Below, piece after piece: positions 18,094 through 35,518 of a stretch of DNA of 36,334 bases; position 1 is the stretch's first letter, and the number at the start of each line of letters is the position of its first letter. Source of the stretch: an uncultured Bacillota bacterium (GTDB taxonomy: Bacteria; Bacillota_I; Bacilli_A; Erysipelotrichales; Coprobacillaceae); contig CASETM010000096.1 of the NCBI GenBank assembly GCA_949290865.1, positions 1 through 36,334 on the forward strand. Direction: 5' to 3'. A program made the position numbers and the translations under genes. The notes below the pieces were generated by a model, which saw only the letters and a list, made by a program, of their open reading frames with translations, was not told the origin of the DNA and did no database searches.

Positions 18094-18104
18094 AGGTATC
18101 AACA

Positions 18105-19142: not shown

Positions 19143-19143
19143 A

Positions 19144-19440
19144 ATGAAATATATCGTTAGATATTGGTTTTCAATTCTTTCATTTGTGATCATCATGATC
19201 ATATTATCACTAGCATTTCACTCTTTTGAAAAAAATACAATTTCCCAGCAAAAAGAAAGTTTGGAAAAAGCATTGAAAAGAGGCATCATGCAAACATATG
19301 CGCTAGAAGGCAGATATCCTGCTTCTTTAGATGAACTGATCAGTGATTATCAGATTACTTACAATAAACAGCAGTTTATCGTTAAATATGAAATTGTTGC
19401 CAGCAATATAATGCCAAGCATCACGATCATTGAAAAATAA
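19144..19440 (+). CDS. Small single-pass, pseudopilin-like protein
   Basis: The 98-aa protein has one N-terminal membrane helix (about 8-28) followed by an amphipathic helix and a small extracytoplasmic part. ALEGRYPASLDELISDY resembles the YP-S-L-L segment found after the N-terminal helix of many pilins and pseudopilins. The N-terminus lacks a clear prepilin cleavage site with Glu at +5. It begins one base after the PilC-like stop codon. A minor pilin-like role is inferred mainly from context. Confidence 0.65.
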   Translation: MKYIVRYWFSILSFVIIMIILSLAFHSFEKNTISQQKESLEKALKRGIMQTYALEGRYPASLDELISDYQITYNKQQFIVKYEIVASNIMPSITIIEK

Positions 19441-19452
19441 AAGGAGGTCATC

Positions 19453-19929
19453 ATGAAAAGAAATAATCAGCACTCGATTGATTTTGTTTTTGTCTTGCTT
19501 CTGTTTTGTTTACTATCAATGTGTTCCCTAGCCGTTGTCTATATCGGTTCACAGGTATACACTGCAACAGTTAACACCATGGAAAATCATTACAGTATGA
19601 CAACAGCCAATGATTATATTTTAGAAAAAACCAGACAGAATCTGGCTTATCAACAAATCGAAATTCAAACTATCGATGATATTGATGTATTATGTTTACA
19701 TGAATCATATGACCAAAATCAATATACAACCTATATTTATGTTTATCAGGGGCAGTTAAGAGAACTGTTGATTTCTCATGACATCACTTTTCAAAAAGAA
19801 AATGGTGAGGCCATCATGAAAGCAGACAAAATGTCATTAAATATAAAAGATCAGCTTTTATCCATAACTTTGACCATTAACGATCAAAGCCAGACATCCT
19901 ATGTAGCATTGTGGGGTGGTTTATCATGA
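19453..19929 (+). CDS. DUF4860-like single-pass protein of the pilus-like operon
   Basis: The 158-aa protein has a cytoplasmic start, one membrane helix (about 10-32) and a beta-rich extracellular domain. It resembles DUF4860 proteins found beside type II/IV pilus-like genes in Bacillota. The ATG follows AAAGGAGGTCATC. Its stop codon overlaps the next start (ATGA). The function is unknown; a minor pilin-like or assembly role is inferred. Confidence 0.65.
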   Translation: MKRNNQHSIDFVFVLLLFCLLSMCSLAVVYIGSQVYTATVNTMENHYSMTTANDYILEKTRQNLAYQQIEIQTIDDIDVLCLHESYDQNQYTTYIYVYQGQLRELLISHDITFQKENGEAIMKADKMSLNIKDQLLSITLTINDQSQTSYVALWGGLS

Positions 19930-20288
19930 GACATAGTAAATCCGCTTTATTTTTAATGGAACTGATTGTTGCAATCATGTTTTTTGCCCTAGCCAGTGCT
20001 ATTTGTATCCAAATGTTCGTCCAAGCCAGAATCATCAATGATCAAAGTATTCAGCAAGAACAGGCTATGCGTATTTCCAGTGAAATCATCGAACGTTATA
20101 AAAGCAATCAAACCATCAGTGAAAAACTCTATTTCGATGAAAACGGAAAAAATATAGATCAAAACAATCATATTTATCAGGCAACAACAAAAATCAATCA
20201 AAACACATTGACTATTCATATTTATTATGAAAATGAAAAGATCTTTTCAACCAGCTATTATCACTATACACAAAGAAACTTGAGGTAA
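19926..20288 (+). CDS. Type IV prepilin-like protein
   Basis: The protein has 120 aa from the ATG that overlaps the previous stop codon; a GTG at 19911 is less likely because GGGGTGG sits between the two. The N-terminus reads SKSALFLMELIVAIMFF. Cutting after the alanine puts Leu at +1 and Glu at +5, as in type IV prepilins, followed by a long hydrophobic helix. The -1 residue is Ala rather than Gly, which is less common. No prepilin peptidase is in the window, so one must be elsewhere if processing occurs. Confidence 0.7.
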   Translation: MRHSKSALFLMELIVAIMFFALASAICIQMFVQARIINDQSIQQEQAMRISSEIIERYKSNQTISEKLYFDENGKNIDQNNHIYQATTKINQNTLTIHIYYENEKIFSTSYYHYTQRNLR

Positions 20289-20292
20289 TAAC

Positions 20293-20748
20293 ATGAAAGA
20301 AAGAAAATTGACCATTAATATAGGAATCATCTCATTTCTTGTCATCTTTATTATTCTTTCTCTCGTCACATTTTCCATTCTTTCATTATCCAGTGCTAAA
20401 GCTAATGAAAGAAGTAGCGAAAAAAGTATAGAACATCATGAAATCTATTACTCATTATCAAGTCAGGGAGAAAAAAAACTTAAAGAAATAGACGATCAGT
20501 TATATTACATATATCAAACAACATCATCAAGTGAAGAATACTTTCAAAATATCAATAGTTTAACTTCACTAATAAAAAATAGCACATTAAATCAGCATAT
20601 CTTTTCATTTCAGCTCAAAAAAGAAAATATGATTTTATCTATAGAATTAGAAATTCTTTATCCCGGAGAAACTTTATACCGTATCCAAACCTGGAAAGTT
20701 TCACCTGATGATCAATGGAATATGGATCAAGGCATTGATCTGTTATAG
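20293..20748 (+). CDS. Single-pass protein of the pilus-like operon, unknown family
   Basis: The 151-aa protein has a basic start, one membrane helix (about 10-33) and an extracytoplasmic part rich in Ser, Glu and Lys. It sits between the prepilin-like gene and the ATPase gene with spacings of 4 and 9 bases. No family was recognised. Its topology matches the other small pilus-like proteins. Confidence 0.65.
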   Translation: MKERKLTINIGIISFLVIFIILSLVTFSILSLSSAKANERSSEKSIEHHEIYYSLSSQGEKKLKEIDDQLYYIYQTTSSSEEYFQNINSLTSLIKNSTLNQHIFSFQLKKENMILSIELEILYPGETLYRIQTWKVSPDDQWNMDQGIDLL

Positions 20749-20757
20749 GAGGTTATT

Positions 20758-21822
20758 ATGAATATTCATGAAATATTAGAAAAATCAGTAGCTAAAAATG
20801 CTTCTGATATCTTTATCGTTGCTGGTCAGCCAGTCACCATTAAGGTTTTCAATCAGCTTCTCCCTTTAGATGAAACACGCTTGCTGCCAGATGACACTAA
20901 TCAATTAATCCAAGATATCTATACATTATCACAAGAAAGAAACAATAAGCTGCTTGTGGAAAAAGGTGACGATGACTTTTCCTTTTCAATTAGAGGATTA
21001 TCACGTTTTCGTGTCAGCACTTATAAACAGCGTGGATCGTATGCAGCAGTTATTCGTGTGATTTCTTTTGAACTGCCCCACCCTGAAGAAATCGGCATTT
21101 CGCAAGATATCATTGAACTGGCCAATATAAAAAAAGGACTGATCCTCGTTACGGGACCAGCCGGCAGTGGTAAAAGTACAACACAGGCATGTATGATTGA
21201 TTATATCAACAAAACCCAATCTAAACATATTATTACACTTGAAGATCCTATCGAACATCTTCATTCACATAACAAAAGTATCGTTTCCCAACGTGAAATA
21301 TCGATCGATAGCGAATCATATATAGAAGCACTCAGAGCCGCTTTAAGACAGGCTCCTGACGTTATTTTATTAGGAGAGATGAGAGACTACGAAACCATTA
21401 ATACAGCGCTAACAGCGGCAGAAACAGGCCATGTCGTTATCTCAACATTACACACCATTGGCGCTGCTACAACAATTGACAGAATTATTGATGTCTTCCC
21501 TGCTAATCAGCAGCATCAAATCAGACTGCAATTAGCTATGACCTTAGAAACTGTTATTTCACAACAGCTAGTACCAACGACTGATGGTAAACTGATACCA
21601 GTATTTGAAATCATGAAATCAACACCAGCTATCAAAAATCTCATCAGAGAAAATAAAATCCATCAAATTGATGGCATCATCGCTTCCAGTGCAAATAATC
21701 AAATGATTTCCATGGATAACAGTCTACTCAATCTTGTTCAACAAAATATCATCACTAAAGATACAGCCTTATTTTATGCATCTAATCAAGAACTAATGAA
21801 AAGAAAATTAAACATCAGGTAG
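20758..21822 (+). CDS. PilT-family secretion/retraction ATPase
   Basis: The 354-aa protein is of the PilT subgroup of type II/IV secretion ATPases: a short N-terminal domain, then the RecA-like core. Walker A is GPAGSGKST (133-141), the Asp box is ITLEDPIEH (Glu162, Asp163), Walker B is DVILLGEMRD (201-210), and the His box is HVVISTLHT (His225, His232). There is no N1 domain or zinc tetracysteine as in PilB/GspE. It is the only motor ATPase in the operon, so it may power assembly, retraction or both. GGAGG precedes the ATG. Confidence 0.88.
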   Translation: MNIHEILEKSVAKNASDIFIVAGQPVTIKVFNQLLPLDETRLLPDDTNQLIQDIYTLSQERNNKLLVEKGDDDFSFSIRGLSRFRVSTYKQRGSYAAVIRVISFELPHPEEIGISQDIIELANIKKGLILVTGPAGSGKSTTQACMIDYINKTQSKHIITLEDPIEHLHSHNKSIVSQREISIDSESYIEALRAALRQAPDVILLGEMRDYETINTALTAAETGHVVISTLHTIGAATTIDRIIDVFPANQQHQIRLQLAMTLETVISQQLVPTTDGKLIPVFEIMKSTPAIKNLIRENKIHQIDGIIASSANNQMISMDNSLLNLVQQNIITKDTALFYASNQELMKRKLNIR

Positions 21823-22371: not shown

Positions 22372-22977
22372 TTATTCTTGTGAACCAGATGGATTGTATG
22401 TTTCAATAGTTACATCATTCCATCCAATAATTTGTCCAGCATTATTTGTTTCTGGTGTAAAATTATCAGCTTGAACTGCTTCTGCTGAAACATCAATAGT
22501 AAATGTTACATTAGCTATTTCATTACCCCAACTTGAAGGAATTGTTACTTTATTGAAGAATTCAATTTCTTGAGCTTCAACGTTTTTTTCTACTTTTGTT
22601 TGATAATAGTAATAACCATCTTCTGCTTTTACCCAATTAGTTCTATTTATATCAATATTAGGTTCTAAATCCGCAATTTGAGCATCATTTAATCCAGTAT
22701 ATTCAATTTTAGCTCTTAAATAAAGTGATTCAGAACCAGCTGTAACTGTAATGGTTGGGTCCTTAACAATTTCCTGTCCTGGTTTAACATCATCAATTTC
22801 TCCATCAGGATTATCATCATCCCAATCTGGTTCATCTAAATCAATATCTACATTACCCATAGTAATAGTATTTGTTTTTTCATCACTGTCAGTAAAGTAC
22901 GCAAGTGTTGCACCAACACCTAAAGCTGCAACTAACGCTAAACTTACAATTAAAGTTCCCAATTTTTTATTTTTCAT
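22372..22977 (-). CDS. TasA/camelysin-like protein with SipW-type signal (201 aa)
   Basis: The N-terminus has the SipW-dependent signal: basic start, hydrophobic core, then GATLAYFTDSDEKTNTITMG and an acidic strand. The mature part is beta-rich with many Asp residues (EPDWDDDNPDGEIDD), as in calcium- or metal-linked fibre or matrix proteins of the TasA/CalY type. It is a paralogue of the 222-aa gene immediately upstream, with 25 bases between them. It is presumably exported and matured by one of the two SipW-type peptidases here. Whether it forms fibres is not shown by the sequence. Confidence 0.85.
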   Translation of the reverse strand: MKNKKLGTLIVSLALVAALGVGATLAYFTDSDEKTNTITMGNVDIDLDEPDWDDDNPDGEIDDVKPGQEIVKDPTITVTAGSESLYLRAKIEYTGLNDAQIADLEPNIDINRTNWVKAEDGYYYYQTKVEKNVEAQEIEFFNKVTIPSSWGNEIANVTFTIDVSAEAVQADNFTPETNNAGQIIGWNDVTIETYNPSGSQE

Positions 22978-23002: not shown

Positions 23003-23671
23003 CTATTCTGTTGGAGTTTGTTGTGTTGTAAAATCCGTTAATCCACTAATCACTTTTTCTAAAGCAAATTCTTCATCAGTTTTACCTTCAGGTGCGTCTA
23101 ATCCATCTGCTTGTATAGATGCAGCTCTAATCAACAATTGACCTAAATTTCTTTTTGAATGTTCACTATCATGTTCTATTGTTTCAGCAATTGTAACTTC
23201 AGTAAATAATGCTGGTAATTGAATACCTTCTTTGTAAACTCCTCTTCCTGTGTCATCATTATCTGTAGTACTATTATCTACAATAGCTTTATATCTGTAA
23301 ATACTAATTTCAGCCCCATCATCACTTACTTTAATCCAATTTTGATCATCATAAACATATGAAATATTGTCGTTTTCCTTTACAGCCATAAAAACATATT
23401 GTCTAACATTTGCATTTGCCACAGTAACTGTTGGATCCTTATCATATGGCATACCAGGAATTACATCATTATATTCATTATGATCGATACGAGCTCCATC
23501 AGTATCAGTCATATCTTGTTCATCAAGATAAATAGTTGTTTTGTCACTTAGATTAAACGTGTTAGTTACGTTTGTAGTTTGATCAGTTAAATATGCTAAT
23601 GTAGCCCCTACTCCAATTGCACCAACAAGCGCTAAACTTCCTAATGTTGTTACCAATTTTTTCTTATTCAT
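23003..23671 (-). CDS. TasA/camelysin-like protein with SipW-type signal (222 aa)
   Basis: Same design as its downstream neighbour: a MNKKK start, a hydrophobic core and a GATLAYLTDQTTNVTNTF cleavage region, then a beta-rich secreted domain with DPTVTVANANVRQYVFM (the typical DPxVTVxN strand of TasA-like proteins). GGAGGAG-type ribosome site in front. It is the first gene after a SARP-type promoter whose -10 box is TAAAAT at 23740-23735. Likely the major secreted product of this promoter. Confidence 0.85.
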   Translation of the reverse strand: MNKKKLVTTLGSLALVGAIGVGATLAYLTDQTTNVTNTFNLSDKTTIYLDEQDMTDTDGARIDHNEYNDVIPGMPYDKDPTVTVANANVRQYVFMAVKENDNISYVYDDQNWIKVSDDGAEISIYRYKAIVDNSTTDNDDTGRGVYKEGIQLPALFTEVTIAETIEHDSEHSKRNLGQLLIRAASIQADGLDAPEGKTDEEFALEKVISGLTDFTTQQTPTE

Positions 23672-23734: not shown

Positions 23735-23768
23735 ATTTTATTCTATGCAAGTAACACAGTGGTCACAT
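23735..23768 (-). promoter_or_regulatory. SARP-type promoter of the tasA-like pair
   Basis: Read on the minus strand: ATGTGAC (23768-23762), four bases, GTGTTAC (23757-23751), ten bases, then TAAAAT (23740-23735). This is the same geometry as three other promoters in the locus; the second heptamer is the most divergent of the set. Confidence 0.65.
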
Positions 23769-23832
23769 ATATAACTATTTTTCTAAAATATTCAAAACTA
23801 TGTATTTTTTAATTATCAAATTTTTTTACGTT

Positions 23833-24315
23833 TTATTCTTTTTCTTTCAAAATACCAGGTAACATATTTACTGTAATTAATACCGCTACAATAATACACA
23901 CTGCAACGATTGCAAGTGGTGTTCTAGAATAAATAGCCATATATCCTAAATAAGGAACAGTAAATATTACTTTACCAACTATTTGACTATTTTGAACTTC
24001 TGAACCATCTACGTTATCATTAGCATCTCCTTTGGTAATTAATGTATTGTTATCTGTATTTATCGAATTAACTCTATGTGTCACCATTGTATTTTCAGAC
24101 AATTTATAACTTACTACATCACCAACTTCTAGATCCTCGAACTCTACACTCTTTGTATAAACCAGTGAGCCAACTGGAATATTTGGCTCCATACTTCCAC
24201 TAATAACTGAGAAAGTCTTAAATCCAACAAAATTAGGTACAAATAACAATAATACCAATATCAATAAAAATACAAATAATAAACGGCTAATCCAATTACA
24301 TATTTTTTCTATCAT
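23833..24315 (-). CDS. SipW-type signal peptidase I (copy 2)
   Basis: The 160-aa membrane protein has a Ser-His dyad: VISGSMEPNI (Ser41), MVTHRVNSI (His80) and KGDANDNVD, with an N-terminal and a C-terminal membrane helix. It is a paralogue of the copy at 21815. It lies just downstream of the 267-aa SipW-signal-like protein and the VWA protein, behind a hairpin terminator. Having one peptidase per operon suggests different substrate preferences (inference). AGGAGG precedes the ATG. Confidence 0.9.
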   Translation of the reverse strand: MIEKICNWISRLLFVFLLILVLLLFVPNFVGFKTFSVISGSMEPNIPVGSLVYTKSVEFEDLEVGDVVSYKLSENTMVTHRVNSINTDNNTLITKGDANDNVDGSEVQNSQIVGKVIFTVPYLGYMAIYSRTPLAIVAVCIIVAVLITVNMLPGILKEKE

Positions 24316-24337
24316 AAATACCTCCTATTATTTAAAA

Positions 24338-24362
24338 AATAGAGGTTCATTGAACCTCTATT
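24338..24362 (-). terminator. Hairpin terminator/attenuator before sipW copy 2
   Basis: AATAGAGGTTC pairs with GAACCTCTATT, and six Ts follow on the minus strand. It overlaps the stop codon of the 267-aa gene. Confidence 0.8.
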
Positions 24363-25161
24363 CATTTGAACTATTAGCAGCATCCTTAGTATTTGTTTTA
24401 AAATATTGCCAAATATGTTCTGTATCCTCAACAATAGGTGTTTCTTCAAATGCATCTATAATGCCATTATTATTGCTATCAGCATTGGAAATAGTATCAC
24501 CATCATTTAAAACTACCGGTACAGATTCTTGATATAGAGAAATTTGAATATTTTCTAATTCAGCAAACTCTAACTTTTGGTCATCAGTTGCTAGATTATA
24601 ACTAATATATTGTATTTCTCCATTTACTTCAACTTTTAAAAGAATTCTATCAAACAAAGGTTGTGTCACATCTAAAGTACTATTATCATCTTTAGCTTTT
24701 AACACTTTTTTATAGTAATAATAACAAGAATAATGATCTTCTCCATCTTGTATTATTGGTTGCCAATATTGCTTTGAAAATTCATCCTTTGCATATTCGC
24801 CACATTGTGAAAAACTGTTTTCCTCGCCTTCAGCTAATAATCCATTAAAATTATCACTTCCTACCGCATATCCTGTATCGATTCCAGCTAAAGCAAACTT
24901 ACTAAAATCACCTGATATATTTAATCTTATTCTAACCATCACATCTGTAATATCAGTATTTTCTACAAACGGAGCTTTAGTGAGAGTAGTATTATGATTA
25001 TTTTCTTCTATTTCAGTATCAATACTTTTCATACTGAATGAGTTAATAACTGTACTACTATAATCTTGTAAAAAAGCTATAGTTGTTGCTGATACCATCA
25101 CAAGAAGTATCATAAGAGAGATAATTCTTGTTCTTTTAGACAATTTTTTAATAAATTTCAT
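24358..25161 (-). CDS. Secreted protein with a diverged SipW-type signal (267 aa)
   Basis: The N-terminal hydrophobic segment ends in ATTIAFLQDYSSTVINSF and an acidic strand, which lines up with the GATLAYFTD-NTF pattern of TasA-like proteins but has changed residues at the usual AY-TD positions. The mature region is beta-rich and ends in a low-complexity polar tail (YFKTNTKDAANSSNE). It lies 12 bases downstream of the giant VWA gene and upstream of SipW copy 2. It may be a subunit or adaptor of the VWA protein. It could not be placed in a named family. Confidence 0.7.
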   Translation of the reverse strand: MKFIKKLSKRTRIISLMILLVMVSATTIAFLQDYSSTVINSFSMKSIDTEIEENNHNTTLTKAPFVENTDITDVMVRIRLNISGDFSKFALAGIDTGYAVGSDNFNGLLAEGEENSFSQCGEYAKDEFSKQYWQPIIQDGEDHYSCYYYYKKVLKAKDDNSTLDVTQPLFDRILLKVEVNGEIQYISYNLATDDQKLEFAELENIQISLYQESVPVVLNDGDTISNADSNNNGIIDAFEETPIVEDTEHIWQYFKTNTKDAANSSNE

Positions 25162-25173
25162 AGCTTATCCCTC

Positions 25174-28100
25174 CTATTCTTCAATATTACCAACTTCTAC
25201 AAAATGATCATGTTTACCAGTAATAGTAATACTTCCGTCATCATTAATGTTAAATGTATTTATAACAATATCGGTATCACTTTGGTCCTTATCATTGATA
25301 TTGGTATTTTTAAAAGTAATTTTAACGTTTCTACAATCAGTATAAACTTTATTATCATATGCAGTTCCTATCTGACAAATTACTGAATTATCTTGAATAG
25401 TATAACCTGCTGCGTATTCAATGCTTGAATCTATATTTTCTTCAGTCAAAGTTGATAACTGATATCTTATTGAATCTAATTCTGTAACAGTATAATTACC
25501 TTTTTCTAACCCATCAATTGTAGCAACAAATTGTTTAGCATCAGAATCTTTTTCAAATCTAACTGACCTATATTCATTAACAGGTGTACCAGCATCAGAT
25601 GTTCCTACTATATGGAATGTAAATATTGGATCTCCTTGTGTATCATTATTAGTCATTTCATCTATTTCTTTATAGATTGTAATTGATCCAGAAACAACAT
25701 CTACAACATATACACCATATTTACTTCGAGCAGTAGCAAAATCATCAATTTTATTGTTATTTTGATCTAAACCTTCACCAACTTGTTTACTATCCTGATC
25801 CATATCATTAGTAGCATAAATAGTTTTCAATAGAACATTATCTTTATCATCTGTATTTGATAAAGAGTCTTGACTAGAAATTTCTACATTCTTTAATTTA
25901 ACTTGCAGATAATAAACTTTATCATTTGTTGGTTTTTCAGCATTTATATCATTGATTTTAGAGTTTTCTAAAGCAGATAATCCGTCTGAAGCACTGTACC
26001 ATGTAAATTCAAAATCATCTTTAGTTAATTCAGTGCCATCTGGTGCAATACTGAGAGTTTCACCTTTTGAATTTTTGAACTGATTAAATAACCTATCCTC
26101 AATACTTTCACTATCCCCAGTATTTACAGATAAACTTTCACCTAAGAATATTGTATCATCTGCATTACCTACGACAAAATCAACTTTAACATTAACTTCT
26201 GGTTGATTGAATTCTTTATGAATAGTTCCTACATTAATACCTGATCCACTTCCATTTGTGGTTACGTCATTTCCACCGATATAATCATCTTTGGCTTTTA
26301 CATAAATTGTTTGATGCCAACCAGTCAATCCATCAACTGAATACGATAAATTGACATCTTCCCAAATTATATAATATTCCTCTTTTGTCTTATCATATCC
26401 AATTGTTCCACCAGCAAATTTATCACTTGGATTCAATTTTTCTCCATCTTCATCAGTTATAATAAATCTGCTATCAATATAGTCAATAATATCTGCATTA
26501 GTTATTTGATAAATAATTTTTCCAAAAATTTCACTAAATTCATTGATCAATTCATCAGAATTTTTACCAATATATACTAACTTACTTGTATTATCAATTG
26601 GATCATTAGATACCCATTGCTTTAAACTAGTAACTCCTGCGTTATCTTGTCCATTATCTAATTGAGCAAATATACCCGCACCGAATAATAAATTTACATA
26701 TTCTGATTTCATAGTATTAGCAATATCAGTAACATCGTCAACAGTATAGTATTCATTAGTGGTATTAGTTTTCAAATTTTTTTCAGATAAATCACCATCC
26801 GTGAATAATATTGCGTAAGTATTTTCCTTACTAATATTATTATTTTGATCAGATTGAGCATCAGCAATAATCTGATTAGCTTTTTCTATAGCTGCATATT
26901 GATTAGTTCCACCATATAATTTTGTATTTACATTGTTAATGATAGCATCAGCAGTAATATTTTTAACATTCTCAAAATCACTAAAGTTTTTTACACCTGC
27001 AGCAAACTGAACATATGCAATATTTGATTCTGGAGAAACTGAAATCATATTTTTTATAAAGTAATCTAAAGCTATATACAATGCTTCTAATTTTGTTTTA
27101 TCTACTTCAGAATTTCTAGTATATATAGTCTCATTTGCTAACACGCTACCTTGAACTGAAATTTTTCCATCTTTATATTCATCTTTTTGGAAAACTTTTT
27201 TACCATTACTGTCAGACTTAACGGTATACCATCCAGGACTTAATTTTTCTGTTTTATTTGTTCCAACAGGAACTGCTTTAGTGCCATCAGTATAAGCAAT
27301 AGGTTTATACTCATACGAATCTCCTTCTCCTAAACGATAAACATAATAAGTATATTCCCATTCTTTAATTGTACCCAAACCGTTATTTTTTCCTAATGTC
27401 TCATTATCTTTCGCAGTATTACTATCATTTAATGCTTGCAAATTAGTATGCGTACCAGTTGGAGCAGTAACAAACCATGGCATACTTCCTGAAACATCTA
27501 ACATTAACATGATGTTTGCCACTTTATTTTTAGGCATTATTTTATGTGAAGCATATAAATCAATCTTATACGTTCTTTCATCCCAATCTTTTAATTCAAC
27601 AGATTTTTTAGCTTGCAAATCATTATCAGAGAGTTTTCTTAAAACAATTTTCCCATGATTAGTAAATTTCTCGTTGATAATGCCATCGCCATCTGGATCA
27701 TAATCTTTTCTAATTGAAGGTTCATTTTTAGTAATAATTGTTTCTGCCCAAAAATCACCAGCAGGTTCATTACCTCCATTATTATTTAACTTATTAATAG
27801 GTGTAAATACAATCCATGAATTATCATCATATTCAATTTCAATACGCATAAAAGCTTGTTTTTTTTGACCACTACCTTTCACTGCATACCAATAAAAATA
27901 TAAATTTTTAATTTTTAATTCATCCCATTGTAAATTCAATCTATCTTTTACATCAATATAGTAATAATTATTATCACTTTTTTCAGGTGTTCCATCGATA
28001 TAGTTACCAGGTCCTTTTTGATAATCAGAAGGATGATCTATCTTATTTTCACCCTGATTACCAATTGAAAAAAGAATGGTTTTTCCTTTTACTCCAGATG

Positions 28101-28965
28101 GTATTTCAATATTTTGCACATTAACAATACCACCCATTCCTGTTTCACTATTATTCCAGTTAATCGCATCATATCCATAGGTTGTTTTATCTATTGAACT
28201 TCCCCATTCATAATAATAAAAATTGTCTTCTGCTGGGATAAATTGGCTATTTGCATCTTTTGTTTCATAAGTTCCTTCGTTTACATCACTATTAACTCTT
28301 ACATAGAAAGTTGCTTCAACATCGAATGCTATTCCTTTTAGTTCATCAGCCCCAATTTGATTAGTATATTTGAAACCATCCGAATGTTCTTTATCGAAAC
28401 CAGTAACATTATTAGCTTCAATTATTAATTCAACTTTCCCATTATTTTCAGTAAAACTTACATTACTAACTCCTATTTTAGTAGTTGCTTCCATTTTATA
28501 TAGATCATCGTTTTCTATAACATGGAAGTTTTTATCAATTTCTTCAGTAATAGATAAACTAGTACCTGCTTTCAATGGATTTTTCCAAATATTATTTTCT
28601 TTTTCATTATCTTCATTGACGTATCTGTATTTAAATCCTAAAGCTTGGAAAGTAATTTCATACAAACCATCTTGTCCTTCGACTTTTTTTATAATTTTAT
28701 TTGTCCATACCTGACCTTCTGTGGCATCAGATGTTAAATTACTTCCTTTATCATCAGTACTCATTTCAAAATCAGGTTTATCTCCTTTATAGTTGCTATT
28801 TCCAACTATACCATCACTTTCTACAACTAGATTATTAGTAAAATAATTTTCACTTCTTGTACTTGAATCATCTACAGCTTCTACTGTTTGGGTTATAAAG
28901 CACCCTGATAGTATCATTGCTGTAGCTACTACTATTTTACATAATCTATTTTTTATCCTTTTCAT
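25174..28965 (-). CDS. Large secreted VWA-domain surface protein with Cna-B/SpaA-like domain
   Basis: The 1263-aa protein has a signal peptide with a possible lipobox (ILSGC, Cys22) or signal peptidase I site (VEA before VDD). The N-terminal 450 residues are beta-rich. A VWA domain starts near 480 with the MIDAS motif DVSGS (490-494), and a prealbumin/Cna-B-like fold lies at about 1092-1222 (GSITIYKEI, then GLEKGNYTVTELD). VWA domains bind ligands through a metal ion, as in pilus-tip adhesins. There is no C-terminal sorting signal or membrane anchor, so attachment would be by lipidation or by partner proteins. It is the first gene behind a SARP-type promoter. Confidence 0.85.
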   Translation of the reverse strand: MKRIKNRLCKIVVATAMILSGCFITQTVEAVDDSSTRSENYFTNNLVVESDGIVGNSNYKGDKPDFEMSTDDKGSNLTSDATEGQVWTNKIIKKVEGQDGLYEITFQALGFKYRYVNEDNEKENNIWKNPLKAGTSLSITEEIDKNFHVIENDDLYKMEATTKIGVSNVSFTENNGKVELIIEANNVTGFDKEHSDGFKYTNQIGADELKGIAFDVEATFYVRVNSDVNEGTYETKDANSQFIPAEDNFYYYEWGSSIDKTTYGYDAINWNNSETGMGGIVNVQNIEIPSGVKGKTILFSIGNQGENKIDHPSDYQKGPGNYIDGTPEKSDNNYYYIDVKDRLNLQWDELKIKNLYFYWYAVKGSGQKKQAFMRIEIEYDDNSWIVFTPINKLNNNGGNEPAGDFWAETIITKNEPSIRKDYDPDGDGIINEKFTNHGKIVLRKLSDNDLQAKKSVELKDWDERTYKIDLYASHKIMPKNKVANIMLMLDVSGSMPWFVTAPTGTHTNLQALNDSNTAKDNETLGKNNGLGTIKEWEYTYYVYRLGEGDSYEYKPIAYTDGTKAVPVGTNKTEKLSPGWYTVKSDSNGKKVFQKDEYKDGKISVQGSVLANETIYTRNSEVDKTKLEALYIALDYFIKNMISVSPESNIAYVQFAAGVKNFSDFENVKNITADAIINNVNTKLYGGTNQYAAIEKANQIIADAQSDQNNNISKENTYAILFTDGDLSEKNLKTNTTNEYYTVDDVTDIANTMKSEYVNLLFGAGIFAQLDNGQDNAGVTSLKQWVSNDPIDNTSKLVYIGKNSDELINEFSEIFGKIIYQITNADIIDYIDSRFIITDEDGEKLNPSDKFAGGTIGYDKTKEEYYIIWEDVNLSYSVDGLTGWHQTIYVKAKDDYIGGNDVTTNGSGSGINVGTIHKEFNQPEVNVKVDFVVGNADDTIFLGESLSVNTGDSESIEDRLFNQFKNSKGETLSIAPDGTELTKDDFEFTWYSASDGLSALENSKINDINAEKPTNDKVYYLQVKLKNVEISSQDSLSNTDDKDNVLLKTIYATNDMDQDSKQVGEGLDQNNNKIDDFATARSKYGVYVVDVVSGSITIYKEIDEMTNNDTQGDPIFTFHIVGTSDAGTPVNEYRSVRFEKDSDAKQFVATIDGLEKGNYTVTELDSIRYQLSTLTEENIDSSIEYAAGYTIQDNSVICQIGTAYDNKVYTDCRNVKITFKNTNINDKDQSDTDIVINTFNINDDGSITITGKHDHFVEVGNIEE

Positions 28966-29037
28966 AGTCTACCTCCTATCTTAGATCAATGAAAACATCT
29001 TTTTATTTATTTAACTAATATCTATCTTACAATACAT

Positions 29038-29071
29038 ATATTACCTTGTAAGAGTCACATAGAAGTCACAA
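29038..29071 (-). promoter_or_regulatory. SARP-type promoter of the VWA operon
   Basis: Read on the minus strand: TTGTGAC (29071-29065), four bases, ATGTGAC (29060-29054), ten bases, TAATAT (29043-29038). It drives the VWA gene starting at 28965. Confidence 0.75.
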
Positions 29072-29131
29072 AGTAATTAAACTCTATTATTTTTGATAAA
29101 TTTGTCATTTTTGTGACTTATTTATGTGAAT

Positions 29132-29168
29132 AAAGCTATAAAGATCTGTATTTAATTCTTTATAGCTT
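29132..29168 (-). terminator. Terminator after the Gly/Ala-rich surface protein gene
   Basis: AAGCTATAAAG pairs with CTTTATAGCTT (11-bp perfect stem, 15-base loop). On the minus strand it is followed by a short T-rich tract. It closes the upstream operon before the next SARP-type promoter. Confidence 0.65.
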
Positions 29169-29179
29169 ATTCATTATAT

Positions 29180-30028
29180 TTATGCTTTTTTCTTTTTAGT
29201 TAATAAATAAGCAATTAATGCAATGATAGCTACAGCTCCTACACCACCAGCTACATAAACCATGTTAGTTGATTCTTTCGCTCCGGCTTGTGCGACATCA
29301 TTATCTGCGATATTTTCTTCATTGCTTCCTGCTTGAGGAACATCTCCATCTGCAATATCTTCTGTTGTTTCTCCAGCTCCAGCAGCTGCACCAGCACCAC
29401 CAGCGGCTGCTCCAGCTCCAGCAGCACCTGCTCCTCCTGCTGCACCGCCAGGTCCATAAGTAACATTACCTTGGGCATCGATATAAACGATCTGTTCAAT
29501 AACTGGTCCCTGTGTTGCATCTTCTAATGGTGTATAAATAAATTCTATTTCTACATTATCCTGAGATACTGTTAAACGCTTCTGCAAAGCATCAGGCTGA
29601 TATCCTTCAATTGATTTAGCCTGAACTACTTCTTCTGTTCCTAAATCTGTTGTATAAATTGTTGGTGTTTCAATTTCTACGCCATTAATATCCACATATT
29701 TTACTGTAAATTCTACAGCATTAACAATTTTTGTATATTTATAAACAAAAACTGTTTTACCATCAATAACTGTACCAGCATTAAAAGTATTAGTAATACG
29801 ATATCCTTCATAAGTTCCTGATACTGGTGCAGGTACATAATCTAATCCTGTGCCTGCCTCTACTTTATATGTTACTGACGTTGAACCATCAGCAAACGTT
29901 CCATGCGATCCAGCTTTAAACGTAACTTCATATTGTCTACCTTGTGCAAAAGTCGGAATCACAGTAGCAGGTATCATTAAGGTCATAAACAATAATGCTA
30001 CACATAATTTTTTAAATAATACCTTCAT
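29180..30028 (-). CDS. Surface protein with Gly/Ala-rich linker and C-terminal membrane anchor
   Basis: The 282-aa protein has a signal peptide (cut near TFAQG), a MucBP-like repeat region (VKYVDINGVEIETPTIYT, about 108-168), and a Gly/Ala-only stretch at 192-219 made of GGA/GAA units. A short duplicated motif, IADGDVPQAG (225-234) and IADNDVAQAG (240-249), has a 15-residue period. It ends with a membrane helix and KKKKA. There is no LPXTG; the tail is a diverged sorting signal or a simple membrane anchor. It lies four bases downstream of the 232-aa gene in the first SARP-type operon. Confidence 0.8.
   Translation of the reverse strand: MKVLFKKLCVALLFMTLMIPATVIPTFAQGRQYEVTFKAGSHGTFADGSTSVTYKVEAGTGLDYVPAPVSGTYEGYRITNTFNAGTVIDGKTVFVYKYTKIVNAVEFTVKYVDINGVEIETPTIYTTDLGTEEVVQAKSIEGYQPDALQKRLTVSQDNVEIEFIYTPLEDATQGPVIEQIVYIDAQGNVTYGPGGAAGGAGAAGAGAAAGGAGAAAGAGETTEDIADGDVPQAGSNEENIADNDVAQAGAKESTNMVYVAGGVGAVAIIALIAYLLTKKKKA
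29372..29455 (-). repeat. Gly/Ala codon repeat tract in the surface protein gene
   Basis: A GC-richer stretch of GGN and GCN codons in an otherwise AT-rich gene, encoding 28 residues of Gly and Ala (after YGP). Tracts like this change length by slippage in other systems. Confidence 0.7.
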
Positions 30029-30031
30029 TTT

Positions 30032-30730
30032 TTATTCTCCTTCCTTTGCCTGTCTTTTTTTTCTGGTAACAATTAATCCAACGATGACTACAACTGCTCC
30101 CACCAATCCTAAAACATATGGTGCTAAAGTTGTATAATCACCAGTTCTGACTGCCTGAACAAACTTTTTAACGATTGTTGGTTCAGGAGTCACAGGATCA
30201 TCATATTGAACACTAAAAACAAATTGTAATTGTGTTGCAGCATCCTGATAAACATTACCCATTGAATCACCATCAATACCAATTGACATCGTAATAACGC
30301 TCGATTCATTTTCATTCAATGTAGCAATCAGCATGTTTTCTCCCATGCTTTGATTACTTAAATCAACCAGTGTTCCTTCATCTCCAATGGTTCCATCATA
30401 GAAGACTTCACCATCTCTGGCAAAACTGATATCATAAACCGCATGATTATTGGTATCTGTCAAATCTCTTAAAACTTCAGTATTTAAATAGAACTTCAGT
30501 TCACGTTTATCATTATTAACTAATGTGAAAGTTTCACTTCTGGTTTCTCCAGGAAACATTCCTTCAAAATTTTCTGTCAGATCATCCTGATCAGTATTGA
30601 AATCAAAATAATTGGCTGCATCGCCATCAAAACTAATAAGAGGTGATTCATCATATGCATGAACCGGAGCAACACTGCCCATCATAGCCATACATAATCC
30701 TGTTGCTATTAAAATTTTCTTTTTCATCAT
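30032..30730 (-). CDS. Secreted protein with C-terminal sorting-signal-like anchor (232 aa)
   Basis: The start at 30730 follows AGGAGGGAGAAA; a longer reading frame to 30787 has no ribosome site. It has a signal peptide (cut near VHAYD) and a beta-rich domain with FPGETRSETFTLVNND, a pattern typical of SipW-dependent/camelysin-like cell-wall proteins. The C-terminus reads AVRTGDYTTLAPYV, a hydrophobic helix and TRKKRQAKEGE, which looks like a variant of an LPXTG sorting signal (VRTGD in place of LPxTG). No sortase is in the window. It overlaps no other gene and sits between the TasA-like 225-aa protein and the Gly/Ala-rich protein. Confidence 0.75.
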   Translation of the reverse strand: MMKKKILIATGLCMAMMGSVAPVHAYDESPLISFDGDAANYFDFNTDQDDLTENFEGMFPGETRSETFTLVNNDKRELKFYLNTEVLRDLTDTNNHAVYDISFARDGEVFYDGTIGDEGTLVDLSNQSMGENMLIATLNENESSVITMSIGIDGDSMGNVYQDAATQLQFVFSVQYDDPVTPEPTIVKKFVQAVRTGDYTTLAPYVLGLVGAVVVIVGLIVTRKKRQAKEGE

Positions 30731-30743
30731 TTTCTCCCTCCTA

Positions 30744-31418
30744 TTATTCAACTTGAGAAATATTGCCATTTGCATCAAAAGTGACATCCATACCCCATTC
30801 AGCTAAGATTGCATCTTTAGCCGCTACAGTTTGGATAGCATCAACTTCTACATCAACATTTAATTTCAGTGTTGAATAGAATTCTCTATCCTTAATATCA
30901 CCAATTACGATATTATCAATAGCATGGCTTGTTCCTTCTCCGGCTTTGACTGGCATCTTATAATACATATAAACAACTTCTTTATTTTCATCTCTTGCAT
31001 CAATGATCCAATTACCCATTTGAGTCCAATTATCAGCTTTTTCTATTTTTTCTCCATTGAGCTGTAAACCGATTTCTCCTGCTTCAGCATCAAAATTCTT
31101 TGTTCCATCTATCTGGTTTTCCCAGTAACGTGTCAATGTGATACGAATATAAGAATCGTAATCTCCAGTATTATACGCATAGACTGGATAATAGTAATCG
31201 TCTCCTGGCATTCCACCTTCTACATCTATGATATTATTTTTGATATGAGCATATTGTTCTGTTTCATCCAAATCCAAAAGAAGTTCTACACCTAAATTTC
31301 CTACAGAAATTGGTGTCTGTGTATCTGTCTCAGCTCTAAAATAAGCTAACGAACCACCAATTACCGCAACAACAAGCAATGTTGCTGCTAATCCCATGAG
31401 TTTTAATTTCTTTTTCAT
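30744..31418 (-). CDS. TasA/camelysin-like protein with SipW-type signal (225 aa)
   Basis: The start at 31418 was chosen because AGAGGTGG lies seven bases ahead; the longer frame to 31478 would run through the promoter. The N-terminus has a SipW-type signal (GGSLAYFRAETDTQTPISVG, then an acidic strand), and the mature part is beta-rich with a GGMPGDDYYYPVYAYN strand like other TasA-like proteins. It is the first gene of a three-gene operon whose promoter carries the best SARP-type repeats. Confidence 0.82.
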   Translation of the reverse strand: MKKKLKLMGLAATLLVVAVIGGSLAYFRAETDTQTPISVGNLGVELLLDLDETEQYAHIKNNIIDVEGGMPGDDYYYPVYAYNTGDYDSYIRITLTRYWENQIDGTKNFDAEAGEIGLQLNGEKIEKADNWTQMGNWIIDARDENKEVVYMYYKMPVKAGEGTSHAIDNIVIGDIKDREFYSTLKLNVDVEVDAIQTVAAKDAILAEWGMDVTFDANGNISQVE

Positions 31419-31457
31419 AGCCATTCCACCTCTTATATTACGTTTATTTTCTCTTTT

Positions 31458-31491
31458 AGTATAAACCCATGATGTCACATAAAAGTCACAT
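31458..31491 (-). promoter_or_regulatory. SARP-type promoter of the first surface-protein operon
   Basis: Read on the minus strand: ATGTGAC (31491-31485), four bases, ATGTGAC (31480-31474), ten bases, TATACT (31463-31458). Two identical heptamers at an 11-bp period replace the -35 region. Confidence 0.8.
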
Positions 31492-31613
31492 CACTTGTTT
31501 TTTTCTTTAATTTAGAGATTATATGAAATTAACTAAATCCCTTAAAATATTTTTATATATTCCAAAAATACTGATTTTTTCGCAGTTTATTTCTTGATTT
31601 TATATTAAATCGC

Positions 31614-31642
31614 TTGTTAAATTTGGCCAAAGCCTTTAAAAT
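31614..31642 (+). promoter_or_regulatory. Promoter of the SARP-like regulator
   Basis: TTGTTA (31614-31619), a 17-base spacer, TAAAAT (31637-31642). The spacer holds the perfect palindrome TTTGGCCAAA (31622-31631), a possible operator. It lacks the ATGTGAC repeats, so the regulator is probably not self-activated through them. Confidence 0.5.
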
Positions 31643-31706
31643 ATTATATATATCTTTATTAATAGCATTACAATTTGATTAATGAAGGGGGGAGCATTAT
31701 CAATTT

Positions 31707-32900
31707 ATGGATAATACGATATATGTAACGATGTTTCAGAAGTTTTCGTTTTCATATAGAGATAAAGTCATCGATAGTGATACAATCAAATCTGACAAAC
31801 TAATCAAATTATTTGGTTATCTGTTAATGAATACCAACAGAGCTGTACCATCAAGTGAATTAATTGATTTTCTTTGGTTCTATGAAGAAATCGATAATCC
31901 AATCGGGGCTTTAAAAAATCTTGTTTATCGATTACGTGCTATATTAAAAAAACAGTTTCTATTAAACAATTTTATCGTAACAGGAAAAGGGGCATATTCA
32001 ATCAATTCAGAATATATAATCAAAACCGATGTTTCTGAATTTGAATACTATAATGATCTGATCATTGATGATCAGGATGATCATCTGGAAAACTATGATC
32101 ATCTTATTGAAAAATATAAAGGAAAATTCCTCACTGAAATAAAGGGAGATCATAATATTTTATCAAAAAGCACTTATTATCATTCAATCTTTATCGATAG
32201 AATAATCGAGTACGCAGATATATTAGAAGAAAAACAGGAATACGAAAAAATGGAAGCTATAGCCCGTCAGGCCATAAGCATCGATAATCTGGAAGAAGAC
32301 GTCTATGAAATACTGATCAAATCAGTCTATTTCCAACATCAATATAAAAAAGCTCATGAGCTCTATAAATCAACAACTGATATGCTTTATCAGACACTAG
32401 GTATCAAACCATCTGAATCCCTACTGGAATTATATGATCTTATTAAAAAAGAAGATCATGAAGAAGGAACCGATATCTCAGATGTTCAGCATGAACTCAT
32501 CGAAGAAAAACCAGATAGTGCCTTTTTATGCGAATATGGAACATTTAGAGAAATCTATATCATGCAATCTCGTATGATCGGTCGTTTAGGCATCTGCTCA
32601 CATTTATGTCTGATCACACTCATAGACAACTCTAAATCTCCGGAAGAAAGAGAAAATAATAAAGCACTGCATGAAAAAAACATGCAGAAAATTCAGCAGG
32701 CCTTATTATCAGGTCTAAGAATTGGCGATGTCATCTCGCGTCTAAGCATCAATCAGTACGTTGTACTGTTACCAGCATGTAATTATGAAAACTCACTTCA
32801 TGTTATTGACCGTGTTCTTAGAAAAATAAGATATTCATTGAGTCATACACCATTTCTGATTAATTTATCTATCGAAGAAGTCTTACCTAAGGAATCATAA
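31707..32900 (+). CDS. SARP-like transcriptional activator (winged HTH, BTAD, degenerate GGDEF-like domain)
   Basis: The 397-aa protein begins with an OmpR-type winged helix (about 1-100; PSSELIDFLWFYEE and GALKNLVYRLRAILKK). A bacterial transcriptional activator domain of TPR-like helices follows (about 108-250; ending TLGIKPSESLLELYDLI), as in SARP/AfsR/DnrI regulators. The C-terminal part (about 270-397) has GDVISRLSINQYVVLLPAC, which looks like a GGDEF-fold remnant lacking the active loop. It is divergent from the surface-protein operons whose promoters carry heptamer repeats with SARP-like spacing, so it is the obvious activator candidate. Its stop overlaps the next start (TAATG). The signal sensed is unknown. 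Confidence 0.85.
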   Translation: MDNTIYVTMFQKFSFSYRDKVIDSDTIKSDKLIKLFGYLLMNTNRAVPSSELIDFLWFYEEIDNPIGALKNLVYRLRAILKKQFLLNNFIVTGKGAYSINSEYIIKTDVSEFEYYNDLIIDDQDDHLENYDHLIEKYKGKFLTEIKGDHNILSKSTYYHSIFIDRIIEYADILEEKQEYEKMEAIARQAISIDNLEEDVYEILIKSVYFQHQYKKAHELYKSTTDMLYQTLGIKPSESLLELYDLIKKEDHEEGTDISDVQHELIEEKPDSAFLCEYGTFREIYIMQSRMIGRLGICSHLCLITLIDNSKSPEERENNKALHEKNMQKIQQALLSGLRIGDVISRLSINQYVVLLPACNYENSLHVIDRVLRKIRYSLSHTPFLINLSIEEVLPKES

Positions 32901-33334
32901 TGGATAAATACATTAGAAGTATGCCATTCAATATGATGCATTTATGCATCGATGATTACATTGATTATCAGATCATTGGATCATTATACAATACCTCATC
33001 AGAAATGATGAAGTTTAGTGATATCAGTGATATCATATTGGAAATGGAACATATATTTAACAGAAATGGAAATCCTCAGTCTTCACAATTAACACGTAGT
33101 TTTCAAAAACAGGAACCAGCCGGGATCTATCAAAACAAACCGATACTTAAATGGCCCTATGAAGAACTGCTCGTTCACCAGGGAAAACTTTTAACTTTAG
33201 ATATCGTTGTCAAATCCCGCCGTCAGTCATCATGGCAAGGTATTATTTTCTATGAGAATCAGGAAATTGAATTTCCTACCATCTTAGATATGATCAAATC
33301 TATAACTCATATATTAAATAAACACAAATTCTAA
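32900..33334 (+). CDS. Small protein coupled to the SARP-like regulator, unknown function (144 aa)
   Basis: Soluble, without signal or membrane segment. Its start overlaps the regulator's stop by one base, implying a linked role. The C-terminal third (WQGIIFYENQEIEFPTILDMIKSI) resembles the whole of the 57-aa protein encoded downstream (WQGTIEWIEKNEKQSFRSALEMIKLI). This is therefore an N-terminal extension fused to the same small domain. No enzyme motif was seen. Confidence 0.7.
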   Translation: MDKYIRSMPFNMMHLCIDDYIDYQIIGSLYNTSSEMMKFSDISDIILEMEHIFNRNGNPQSSQLTRSFQKQEPAGIYQNKPILKWPYEELLVHQGKLLTLDIVVKSRRQSSWQGIIFYENQEIEFPTILDMIKSITHILNKHKF

Positions 33335-33347
33335 AATTTTGTGAATA

Positions 33348-33381
33348 ATATGACTTTCATGTGACCATATTAATATATACT
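33348..33381 (+). promoter_or_regulatory. SARP-type promoter of the 57-aa gene
   Basis: ATATGAC (33348-33354), four bases, ATGTGAC (33359-33365), ten bases, TATACT (33376-33381), on the plus strand. Same geometry as the three minus-strand promoters of the locus. Confidence 0.75.
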
Positions 33382-33406: not shown

Positions 33407-33580
33407 ATGAAACAGAACAAACACAAAAGAAATAATAGCTTTCTTGTTGTAATCAAAGAAACCCAAAACAATACTTGGCAGGGAACTATTGAATGGATCG
33501 AAAAAAATGAAAAACAGTCTTTTCGCAGTGCCCTGGAAATGATCAAACTCATAGATTCAGCCATTGATGATAAATCCTAA
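33407..33580 (+). CDS. 57-aa small protein with WQG domain, member of the SARP-type regulon
   Basis: The translation is 57 residues: MKQNKHKRNNSFLVVIKE, then NNTWQGTIEWIEKNEKQSF, then RSALEMIKLIDSAIDDKS. It has a good GGATGGGTG-type ribosome site and its own promoter, followed by a terminator. It resembles the C-terminal domain of the 144-aa protein upstream. Very short, so easily missed by gene callers. The function is unknown; a binding partner or feedback regulator of the SARP-like activator is possible. Confidence 0.75.
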   Translation: MKQNKHKRNNSFLVVIKETQNNTWQGTIEWIEKNEKQSFRSALEMIKLIDSAIDDKS

Positions 33581-33609
33581 AAAAAAGTCATACTCAATAT
33601 GACTTTTTT
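33581..33609. terminator. Bidirectional terminator between the 57-aa gene and the EAL gene
   Basis: AAAAAAGTCATA pairs with TATGACTTTTTT around CTCAA. It serves both converging genes. Confidence 0.85.
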
Positions 33610-35518
33610 ATTTTTTCATTTTCATAAACTGTAAATAATTGCTGGCATTCAATGGCTTTGAAAAATAAAACCCCTGTATATAATCAACACCCAGTTTTTC
33701 CAGTTCCTGATACTGCATCACATTTTCGACCCCTTCAACAACGATCTTAAACTGCAGATGATGCAACAGACGAATCAATGTATCTATCAAATGATAATTA
33801 TTGCTGTTATAAGGGAAGCCCTGTATCAATGAACGATCAATTTTAATACAGTTCAGTGGAAATTTGATAATACTGGCAACATTAGAATAGCCAGTCCCAA
33901 AATCATCAAGACAGAACTGAATACCGATATCATTCAAACGATGAATAACATCAAACATTTTATCTTCCTGGCTGGATAATATCTGTTCTGTCACTTCTAT
34001 TCTTAATCGATGAGGATCAATATCATAAGTTTCAATAATCGATTGAATCTTTTCAACAATATTTTCATTTTCCAGCTGCTGCATCGATAAATTCACCGAA
34101 ACACACTGTGGCTGATCAGGATGAGCCTGTAAAAAGGCACATACCTTTTCAATCACAAACCAGCTGATATCATCCATCATCTGATGACTTTGAGCAATAG
34201 GTATAAAATCATGCGGTGCAATGATCTTATCTCCATCTACCAGACGTAACAGAGCTTCAGCAAAAGCAAACTGCTGTTTTTTAATATCATAAATCGGCTG
34301 AAGCCATACCTGCAGACTGTTTTTAGCGATGGCCTGCTGCAATAAAGCTAAAATCCGTTTTTCCTGACTGATCTGATGCAATACACCATCATCAAATTCA
34401 ACAATACGATTTTCCGTTTTAGCTAAAGCCATCGTATATTCCAGCTGTTCAATAAACTGATCACTATTATATCCTGAAAGATATGTTATATAGGCCATAT
34501 CAACATGAATCATCAGATCTTTACTTTGAATCTGCCATGGCATTTCAAAACGTTTAACGATCTGATCGATCAGTAAATGTGTCTGTATATCATCACGATA
34601 TGGAACCATTAAAGCAATCTCAATATTACGATAACGAAAAGCCATACCTTCCACCACTAACTGATCTAAATAATGAGCAATTTCATATAAAAAGATATCT
34701 CCCATATTATGACCATAATTCTTATTTACTTCTTTCAGTCTCTTTAAAGACACCAAAACAATAACAAACTGCTGATGATCATTAATTCTTAACTGAATTT
34801 CTTTAATAAAACTGCGACGGTTCCCTATTTTGGTCAAAGCATCAATATCAGAATGTGAACTGAAAAGATTCATCCACAAAATAATATTAAATACTGCCAT
34901 GATCGATCCATTCATATAAAAATCTGGATAAATCATCTGATACACTGTCATCAAAATAACACTGACCGGCAATGTTTTTAACAGCTGGATCGAAGAACTG
35001 TCCAGACATTTTCTTTTCTGATAAGAAAACCATAACAGTAAACCAATTTCCAGATAAATAAAGAAATATCCTATACTGTTCCATGGACCTCTGACATATT
35101 CAAAATGATATGTAAATGAAAACAAGATTCCAGTAAAAAGATTAGCCACAACGATCAGGTTATATACTGCAGCCAGAAAAAACAATATGATCTTAATTTT
35201 AAACATATAGCTTTTATCATAATTATGCTCTAATATAACCAGCAAAGCACAATACGTCATAAAGACTGCCGTCATATTGATCAGCATAAAATAAATGCTG
35301 TTCAATATGACATTGACGATGACCGGCAAATGATGAGAATACGTAATAGAACAGACACAGATCATATTTAAAACCACGCTGCCAACCGTCAGTAAAAGAC
35401 ATATCATATATTTTTTTAAATGTTCAATATAACGCCATTTCTTCTGCGTCACATTAGCCAAGAGCACCAAGCTGATGATCAGCGAAAAAAGCTCTGAAAT
35501 TAATGATGAATCTAACAT
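33608..35518 (-). CDS. Membrane protein with degenerate GGDEF and intact EAL domain
   Basis: The 636-aa protein has about seven membrane helices (1-225), a GGDEF domain whose active loop is degenerate (FRYRNIEIALMVPY in place of GGDEF), and an EAL c-di-GMP phosphodiesterase domain. The EAL domain keeps FAEALLRL (Glu421), VSVNLSMQQL, LRIEVTEQIL, LDDFGTGYSN (Asp538, Asp539), IKIDRSL, VVEGVEN and GFYFSKPL. Hydrolysis of c-di-GMP is therefore likely. The minus-strand promoter TATAAT (35549-35544) lies ahead of a GAGGGGAAGAG ribosome site. It converges on the SARP-regulator operon. Confidence 0.92.
   Translation of the reverse strand: MLDSSLISELFSLIISLVLLANVTQKKWRYIEHLKKYMICLLLTVGSVVLNMICVCSITYSHHLPVIVNVILNSIYFMLINMTAVFMTYCALLVILEHNYDKSYMFKIKIILFFLAAVYNLIVVANLFTGILFSFTYHFEYVRGPWNSIGYFFIYLEIGLLLWFSYQKRKCLDSSSIQLLKTLPVSVILMTVYQMIYPDFYMNGSIMAVFNIILWMNLFSSHSDIDALTKIGNRRSFIKEIQLRINDHQQFVIVLVSLKRLKEVNKNYGHNMGDIFLYEIAHYLDQLVVEGMAFRYRNIEIALMVPYRDDIQTHLLIDQIVKRFEMPWQIQSKDLMIHVDMAYITYLSGYNSDQFIEQLEYTMALAKTENRIVEFDDGVLHQISQEKRILALLQQAIAKNSLQVWLQPIYDIKKQQFAFAEALLRLVDGDKIIAPHDFIPIAQSHQMMDDISWFVIEKVCAFLQAHPDQPQCVSVNLSMQQLENENIVEKIQSIIETYDIDPHRLRIEVTEQILSSQEDKMFDVIHRLNDIGIQFCLDDFGTGYSNVASIIKFPLNCIKIDRSLIQGFPYNSNNYHLIDTLIRLLHHLQFKIVVEGVENVMQYQELEKLGVDYIQGFYFSKPLNASNYLQFMKMKK

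Follow-up and report, generated by a model that had tools for sequence, protein, structure and literature searches.

The Streptomyces antibiotic regulatory proteins (SARPs) AfsR, ActII-ORF4 and DnrI combine an OmpR-type winged helix with a BTAD domain and act, through sigma region 4, at direct repeats of 11 bp (or 22 bp) which lie over the -35 region, just upstream of the -10 box. The AfsR box is 22 bp long, made up of two 11-bp repeats, and spans -40 to -19; residues W74, R92 and R94 of AfsR contact DNA (PMC10936776). Work on SARPs has dealt almost entirely with antibiotic control in actinobacteria. The stretch of DNA analysed here (the window) is the 36,334-nucleotide contig C96 of a 2,327,802-base (2.33 Mb) genome of an uncultured Bacillota bacterium. 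The host is a Firmicute whose 99% relative, [Clostridium] spiroforme, was the only one returned by a related-locus search of genome contigs. The window encodes a 397-amino acid protein of SARP type which very probably acts as an activator, switching four transcription units for matrix and surface proteins through TGTGAC repeats in their promoters.

Target genes of this kind, which encode SipW peptidases and TasA/BsaA matrix proteins, are known elsewhere under regulators of different classes. The tapA-sipW-tasA operon of Bacillus subtilis is controlled by SinR and others. In Clostridium perfringens, sipW-bsaA is under the two-component system BsaR/BsaS (PMC7395162). A literature search, which covered part of the literature, found no SARP or BTAD protein described in Firmicutes or in association with SipW or TasA. 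The regulator and the four sites are as follows.

31707-32900, plus strand: 397-amino acid SARP-type regulator, with an OmpR-type winged helix, BTAD and a C-terminal degenerate GGDEF domain (LRIGDVISRLSINQY)
31491-31458, minus strand: site 1, ATGTGAC-TTTT-ATGTGAC-N10-TATACT, promoter of the TasA-like operon
29071-29038, minus strand: site 2, TTGTGAC-TTCT-ATGTGAC-N10-TAATAT, promoter of the operon of a giant VWA protein
23768-23735, minus strand: site 3, ATGTGAC-CACT-GTGTTAC-N10-TAAAAT, promoter of the SipW-dependent protein operon
33348-33381, plus strand: site 4, ATATGAC-TTTC-ATGTGAC-N10-TATACT, promoter of a 57-amino acid protein (p57)

The heptamer pairs, linkers, 10-bp gaps and -10 boxes stand in the sequence base for base as an earlier note on this DNA had read them. 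Downstream of each site, at 25-72 bp, comes a start codon preceded by a ribosome-binding site. A -35-like hexamer at 15-19 bp occurs in none of the four window promoters, and since they offer no usable -35 element, they look activator-dependent. One open reading frame, listed with a GTG start and 244 amino acids, overlaps site 1; translation probably begins at the ATG at 31424 instead, which gives a product of 226 amino acids.

The repeat pair alone, at up to 3 mismatches, is found 10 times in the window compared with 6.8 times expected, which is not above chance, so that at this tolerance the pair should not be used without the -10 box. In the genome-wide search that the earlier note had proposed, the full pattern ATGTGAC-N4-ATGTGAC-N10-TANNNT was evaluated with the reversed pattern as a control. 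The best four matches in the whole genome (0, 1, 1 and 2 mismatches) are the four window promoters, which are also the sole matches with up to 2 mismatches; seven further places have 3 mismatches, compared with four in the reversed control. In twenty Markov genomes of equal size the mean number of matches is 0 with no mismatch, 0.05 at up to 1 mismatch and 1.05 at up to 2, while 1, 3 and 4 are observed.

The geometry of the repeats is the same in related genomes, which are given here by G numbers. When the TGTGAC pairs of 43 family genomes are sorted by spacing (the first 150 listed), 26 have an 11-bp period and any other gap accounts for at most 10. Within 957 kb around regulators there are 25 TGTGAY pairs at the 11-bp period, and every other gap accounts for 4 or fewer; TATNNT lies exactly 10 bp downstream in 19 of these 25, with no more than 2 at each of the other distances. 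Four of these come from contig C28 of G008, a stretch chosen because it has sites, and the G005 sequence hardly differs from that of the window, but when the pairs from both are removed about 14 stay at the exact 10-bp distance, far above other distances. Across 44 distinct sites TGTGA is near-invariant in both halves, the C that follows it is present in 36 and 39 respectively, and the linkers are free. The pattern is kept in at least nine genera with diverged flanks. At the p57 promoter the half-sites have drifted to TATAAC-N5-TATAAC in G039 and to CGTTAC-N5-TGTTAC in G218 with the geometry unchanged, which suggests that selection acts on the spacing. With its 11-bp period and 10 bp to the -10 box, a promoter code as strict as this would make such regulons readable straight from genomes.

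The strict form of the site, TGTGAYNNNNRTGTGAY-N10-TATNNT, has 23 matches in 15 of the 316 genomes of the order, and the reversed control has one. A regulator homolog is present in 87 of these genomes, and strict sites occur in 15 of the 87 and in none of the 229 that have no homolog; within the family the corresponding counts are 15/25 and 0/18. The repeats thus track the regulator, and the pattern that the earlier note had considered damaging, in which relatives keep the regulator and lose the repeats, is not the one found. The Fisher p values for this co-occurrence (1.5e-9 for the order and 2e-5 for the family) ignore shared ancestry, a limit against which contrasts within genera help. In genus g1, regulator and sites are both present in G000 and G005 and both absent from G001-G003; in G004, which is 72% complete, there is a partial regulator match of 69 residues and no strict-form site. 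Of the genus g2 genomes, G008 and G010 combine an intact regulator with sites (in G010 solely at p57, with one mismatch), while strict-form sites are found neither in G007, whose regulator has one in-frame TGA, nor in G009, where it is decayed, nor in G006, where it is absent. G012 and G021, which have no regulator, each contain a single TGTGAC pair with the 11-bp period, and in neither does a -10 box follow it at 10 bp.

Nor are the repeats common away from genes of the kind seen in the window, as the earlier note had allowed they might be: unlinked sites in other genomes mostly stand before secreted surface proteins. In G018, a single 3.2-Mb contig, unlinked sites lie 0.13 to 2.4 Mb from the regulator at dispersed chromosomal positions, where they precede genes for secreted proteins with Flg_new repeats, DUF7601 and signal peptides; in G019 a site precedes a protein with a collagen-binding domain. 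A comparison of orthologous promoters, also proposed in the earlier note, finds the sites kept across genera and partly in another family. Site 1 is kept at orthologous TasA-like genes in G027 (54% identity) and G008 (40%) and, in another family, in G243 (40%) and G218 (36%). Relatives of the VWA gene in G008 and G243 have the site, and it is also kept at counterparts of the 222-amino acid protein behind site 3 in G027 (44%) and, at a similar protein, in G008, both with the unusual TGTTAC second repeat.

The regulator gene is single-copy in the genome. Pfam matches in its product are limited to Trans_reg_C (23.2 bits, under the cut-off of 26.2), BTAD (31.3 bits, cut-off 22.1) and a weak C-terminal match to GGDEF, and the scan finds no receiver domain. 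Among 18 homologs BTAD is matched in all 18, Trans_reg_C in 17 and GGDEF in 11. A profile built from 8 close homologs matches the Streptomyces AfsR structure 8hvr (E 4.8e-6) collinearly over winged helix and BTAD, and matches GGDEF structures over the C-terminus; its match to EmbR is weak (E 0.66). The DNA-contacting residues W74, R92 and R94 of AfsR align with W57, R75 and R77 here, and R87 corresponds to K70. A structure predicted from the single sequence had a mean predicted local distance difference test score (pLDDT) of 39 and was not used. The earlier description of this protein as SARP-like is thus supported by winged helix, BTAD and AfsR match, although it had missed the degenerate GGDEF domain.

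The term “SARP-type” applies by domain and promoter criteria, and lies outside the historical sense of regulators of Streptomyces antibiotic clusters. The protein differs from these in its Firmicute host, in the surface and matrix genes that take the place of antibiotic genes, in the TGTGAC half-site, in the C-terminal degenerate GGDEF domain and in its partner proteins of 57 and 144 amino acids. EmbR of Mycobacterium (winged helix, BTAD and FHA) is likewise a small SARP with an extra C-terminal sensory domain, though the extra domain here is GGDEF-like and not FHA (PMC10936776). The register also agrees with that of AfsR to within about one base, since if the -10 box here starts at -12 the first heptamer starts at -40. 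By the mechanism proposed, two protomers would sit side by side on the two 11-bp direct repeats (TGTGAC core) in place of a -35 element, and the bound dimer would contact sigma and recruit sigma-A RNA polymerase to the -10 box fixed 10 bp downstream. A dimer that replaces the -35 element and touches sigma, as in the case of AfsR, would explain both why the 10-bp distance is fixed and why a -35 is missing.

Several observations weigh against this assignment. The link of the sites to the 397-amino acid protein is drawn from co-occurrence and neighbourhood, and SARPs are not the only regulators with this geometry. No such site stands in the promoter of the regulator gene itself, and the AfsR contacts T88, S91 and K95 are not kept (N71, Y74 and A78 in the regulator). 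Spacing from repeat to -10 box in SARPs is given as 8 bp; here it is 10 bp from the end of the heptamer, or 6 bp if the repeat unit is taken as 11 bp, so that the figure depends on how the repeat is delimited. A strict site is lacking in 72 of the 87 homolog-carrying genomes, including most of those whose regulator homologs are only distant. Four SipW-type proteins in G036 (G036:C1:787745-791259) lie near a different group of BTAD regulator without this site, and one SipW-type protein in G028 (G028:C97:42641) has neither this site nor a detected regulator homolog. The regulator group of G036 has a different recognition helix, and another repeat may be used there.

The alternative that survives best, though it is improbable, is that an OmpR/PhoB-type two-component response regulator binds the repeats and that the BTAD gene is merely linked to the cluster. 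The layout of the pho box, two heptamers with a 4-nt spacer (PMC3131613), is identical to that found here, so that geometry alone is no proof of a SARP. PhoB shares the OmpR-type winged helix, and the two-component class is the one that drives sipW-bsaA in C. perfringens. The PhoB heptamer is CTGTCAT, however, compared with ATGTGAC here, and the regulator has no receiver domain. The sites also track the BTAD gene, both its presence and its loss, and do so even when gene and targets lie apart, as at the 0.13 to 2.4 Mb distances in G018, and the regulator cassette itself has the p57 site in seven other genomes. Less probable again is repression of the operons by the same regulator bound at the same sites. 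These do overlap the core promoter, where repressors act too, but a usable -35 hexamer is missing from all four promoters, and the 10-bp distance to the -10 box, kept in most sites, is expected for sigma contact and unneeded by a repressor.

The TGTGA core is a Crp/Fnr half-site, but Crp/Fnr sites are inverted repeats, and those found here are direct repeats at an 11-bp period that track the BTAD gene, so that ownership by a regulator of this type is scarcely credible. A chance pattern, or functionless shared ancestry of recently duplicated promoters, which the location of all four sites within 10 kb could suggest, has a negligible probability given the differing flanks and linkers of the window sites, their occurrence in at least nine genera with diverged flanks and the geometry kept where half-sites have drifted (G039, G218), and is ruled out by conservation in orthologous promoters.

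As a SARP-type activator, the regulator would turn on the TasA-like/MucBP operon, the operon of the VWA giant and a SipW peptidase, that of two SipW-dependent proteins and a second SipW peptidase, and p57, and the products of the four units would serve to produce and secrete a protein matrix and surface adhesins. A SARP-type protein would then control protein-matrix and adhesin genes in gut Firmicutes. The genes of the first three units are listed below.

30744-31424, minus strand: first gene after site 1, TasA-like (BsaA-like) protein with a SipW-type signal sequence; TIGR04090 E 6.4e-7, under its cut-off
30032-30787, minus strand: second gene after site 1, 251-amino acid secreted protein with a C-terminal membrane anchor; no family
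29180-30028, minus strand: third gene after site 1, 282-amino acid MucBP surface protein; MucBP 26.9 bits, cut-off 23
25174-28965, minus strand: first gene after site 2, 1263-amino acid VWA surface protein; VWA_2 E 3.4e-9
24358-25161, minus strand: second gene after site 2, 267-amino acid secreted protein; no family
23833-24315, minus strand: end of the site-2 operon, SipW-like signal peptidase of 160 amino acids; Peptidase_S26 E 1.1e-5
23003-23671, minus strand: first gene after site 3, 222-amino acid SipW-dependent-type protein; TIGR04088 above its cut-off
22372-22977, minus strand: second gene after site 3, 201-amino acid SipW-dependent TasA/BsaA-like protein; TIGR04088 E 1.8e-11, Peptidase_M73 38.9 bits
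21815-22321, minus strand: third gene after site 3, second SipW-like signal peptidase, 168 amino acids; Peptidase_S26 E 8.8e-6

In G005 ([Clostridium] spiroforme An567; L065 / L017) the sequence departs from the window past the -10 box of site 1, and a search of that genome yielded no SipW-type signal; the site-1 operon seems to have been lost there. An operon at 17155-21822 of the window encodes type II secretion/ComG-like proteins F and E and several small pilin-like proteins.

Two small proteins are encoded beside the regulator.

32900-33334, plus strand: 144-amino acid protein, translated after the regulator and conserved beside it, with a p57-like C-terminus
33407-33580, plus strand: p57, 57 amino acids (...TWQGxIxW...FRSALEMIKLIDSA), with its own site 4

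The site at the p57 promoter is kept with 0-1 mismatches in seven other genomes (G005, G008, G010, G027, G018, G019 and G254), which fits the earlier inclusion of a 57-amino acid protein in the regulon; the likeness to the adjoining 144-amino acid protein had been missed. The p57 profile weakly matches the C-terminal part of that protein, and the two share a small domain, xWQGxI...F(R)SxLE(M/L)IKxI, for which there is no Pfam or NCBIfam model. Among 392 genomes sampled across the phylum the domain occurs in six, all in this family; it also occurs in some genomes of a second family. A search of plasmids gave no match to p57. Its predicted structure is a weak beta-beta-alpha model (pLDDT 72, predicted template-modelling score 0.34). 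That p57 accompanies the regulator and carries its own site fits a feedback role, and, more speculatively, p57 may feed back on the regulator. The 144-amino acid protein of G005 is interrupted by an in-frame stop. In L132 (G100 C68, about position 13640) the p57 promoter reads TGTGAC-N6-TGTGAC, a 12-bp period one base longer, with the 10 bp to a -10-like box unchanged.

In the C-terminal domain of the regulator the GG(D/E)EF active-site motif is replaced by SINQY/SxNQF. Five residues before it lies an I-site-like RxxD, whose R338 and D341 are invariant in the 8 close homologs, with D341 present in 18 of 18. Among the known receptors of cyclic diguanosine monophosphate (c-di-GMP) are degenerate GGDEF domains with a retained I-site, for example PopA (PMC5052742); the same loss of signature and retention of RxxD is found here in fusion with a SARP, where c-di-GMP binding is a prediction. 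Canonical GGDEF proteins are encoded elsewhere in the genome, and a further gene, given here as context only, lies next to p57.

33608-35518, minus strand: protein with a degenerate GGDEF and a complete-looking EAL domain (EAL E 1.9e-63; EALLR, DDFG, KID and EGVE motifs present), likely, from these motifs, a c-di-GMP phosphodiesterase

Genes for EAL proteins are found close to the cassette not only in the window but also in G008, G010, G027, G018, G007 and G009. Control of the regulon by c-di-GMP as a signal, sensed by the degenerate GGDEF domain, is in this light suggestive only. The fuller proposal, a SARP of TasA/SipW matrix genes gated by c-di-GMP through RxxD, with p57 and the 144-amino acid protein as a travelling feedback module and EAL genes nearby in several genomes, is put forward tentatively, as possible but on the doubtful side; the attached domain would tie SARPs to second-messenger signalling. 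A second possible c-di-GMP phosphodiesterase, an 838-amino acid protein at 12181-14697 of the window, has a GGDEF-like part (ARYSGKEF for GGDEF) followed by an HD-GYP-like part (HDIGK, HHERYDGKGYP).

A variant site with TGTGAT halves stands before secreted proteins of about 610-630 amino acids in G032, G033, G035, G036, G039 and G041 (L068, L064, L070, L072, L081 and L077). The one of these proteins that was scanned (L070) matched no Pfam family. The genomes with the variant carry more distant, paralogous BTAD regulators of two other groups, at 24-30% identity, whose genes are close to these sites. In G031 (C6, L123:3769-4926) a BTAD regulator gene has a site in its own promoter, which may reflect autoregulation or a cascade.

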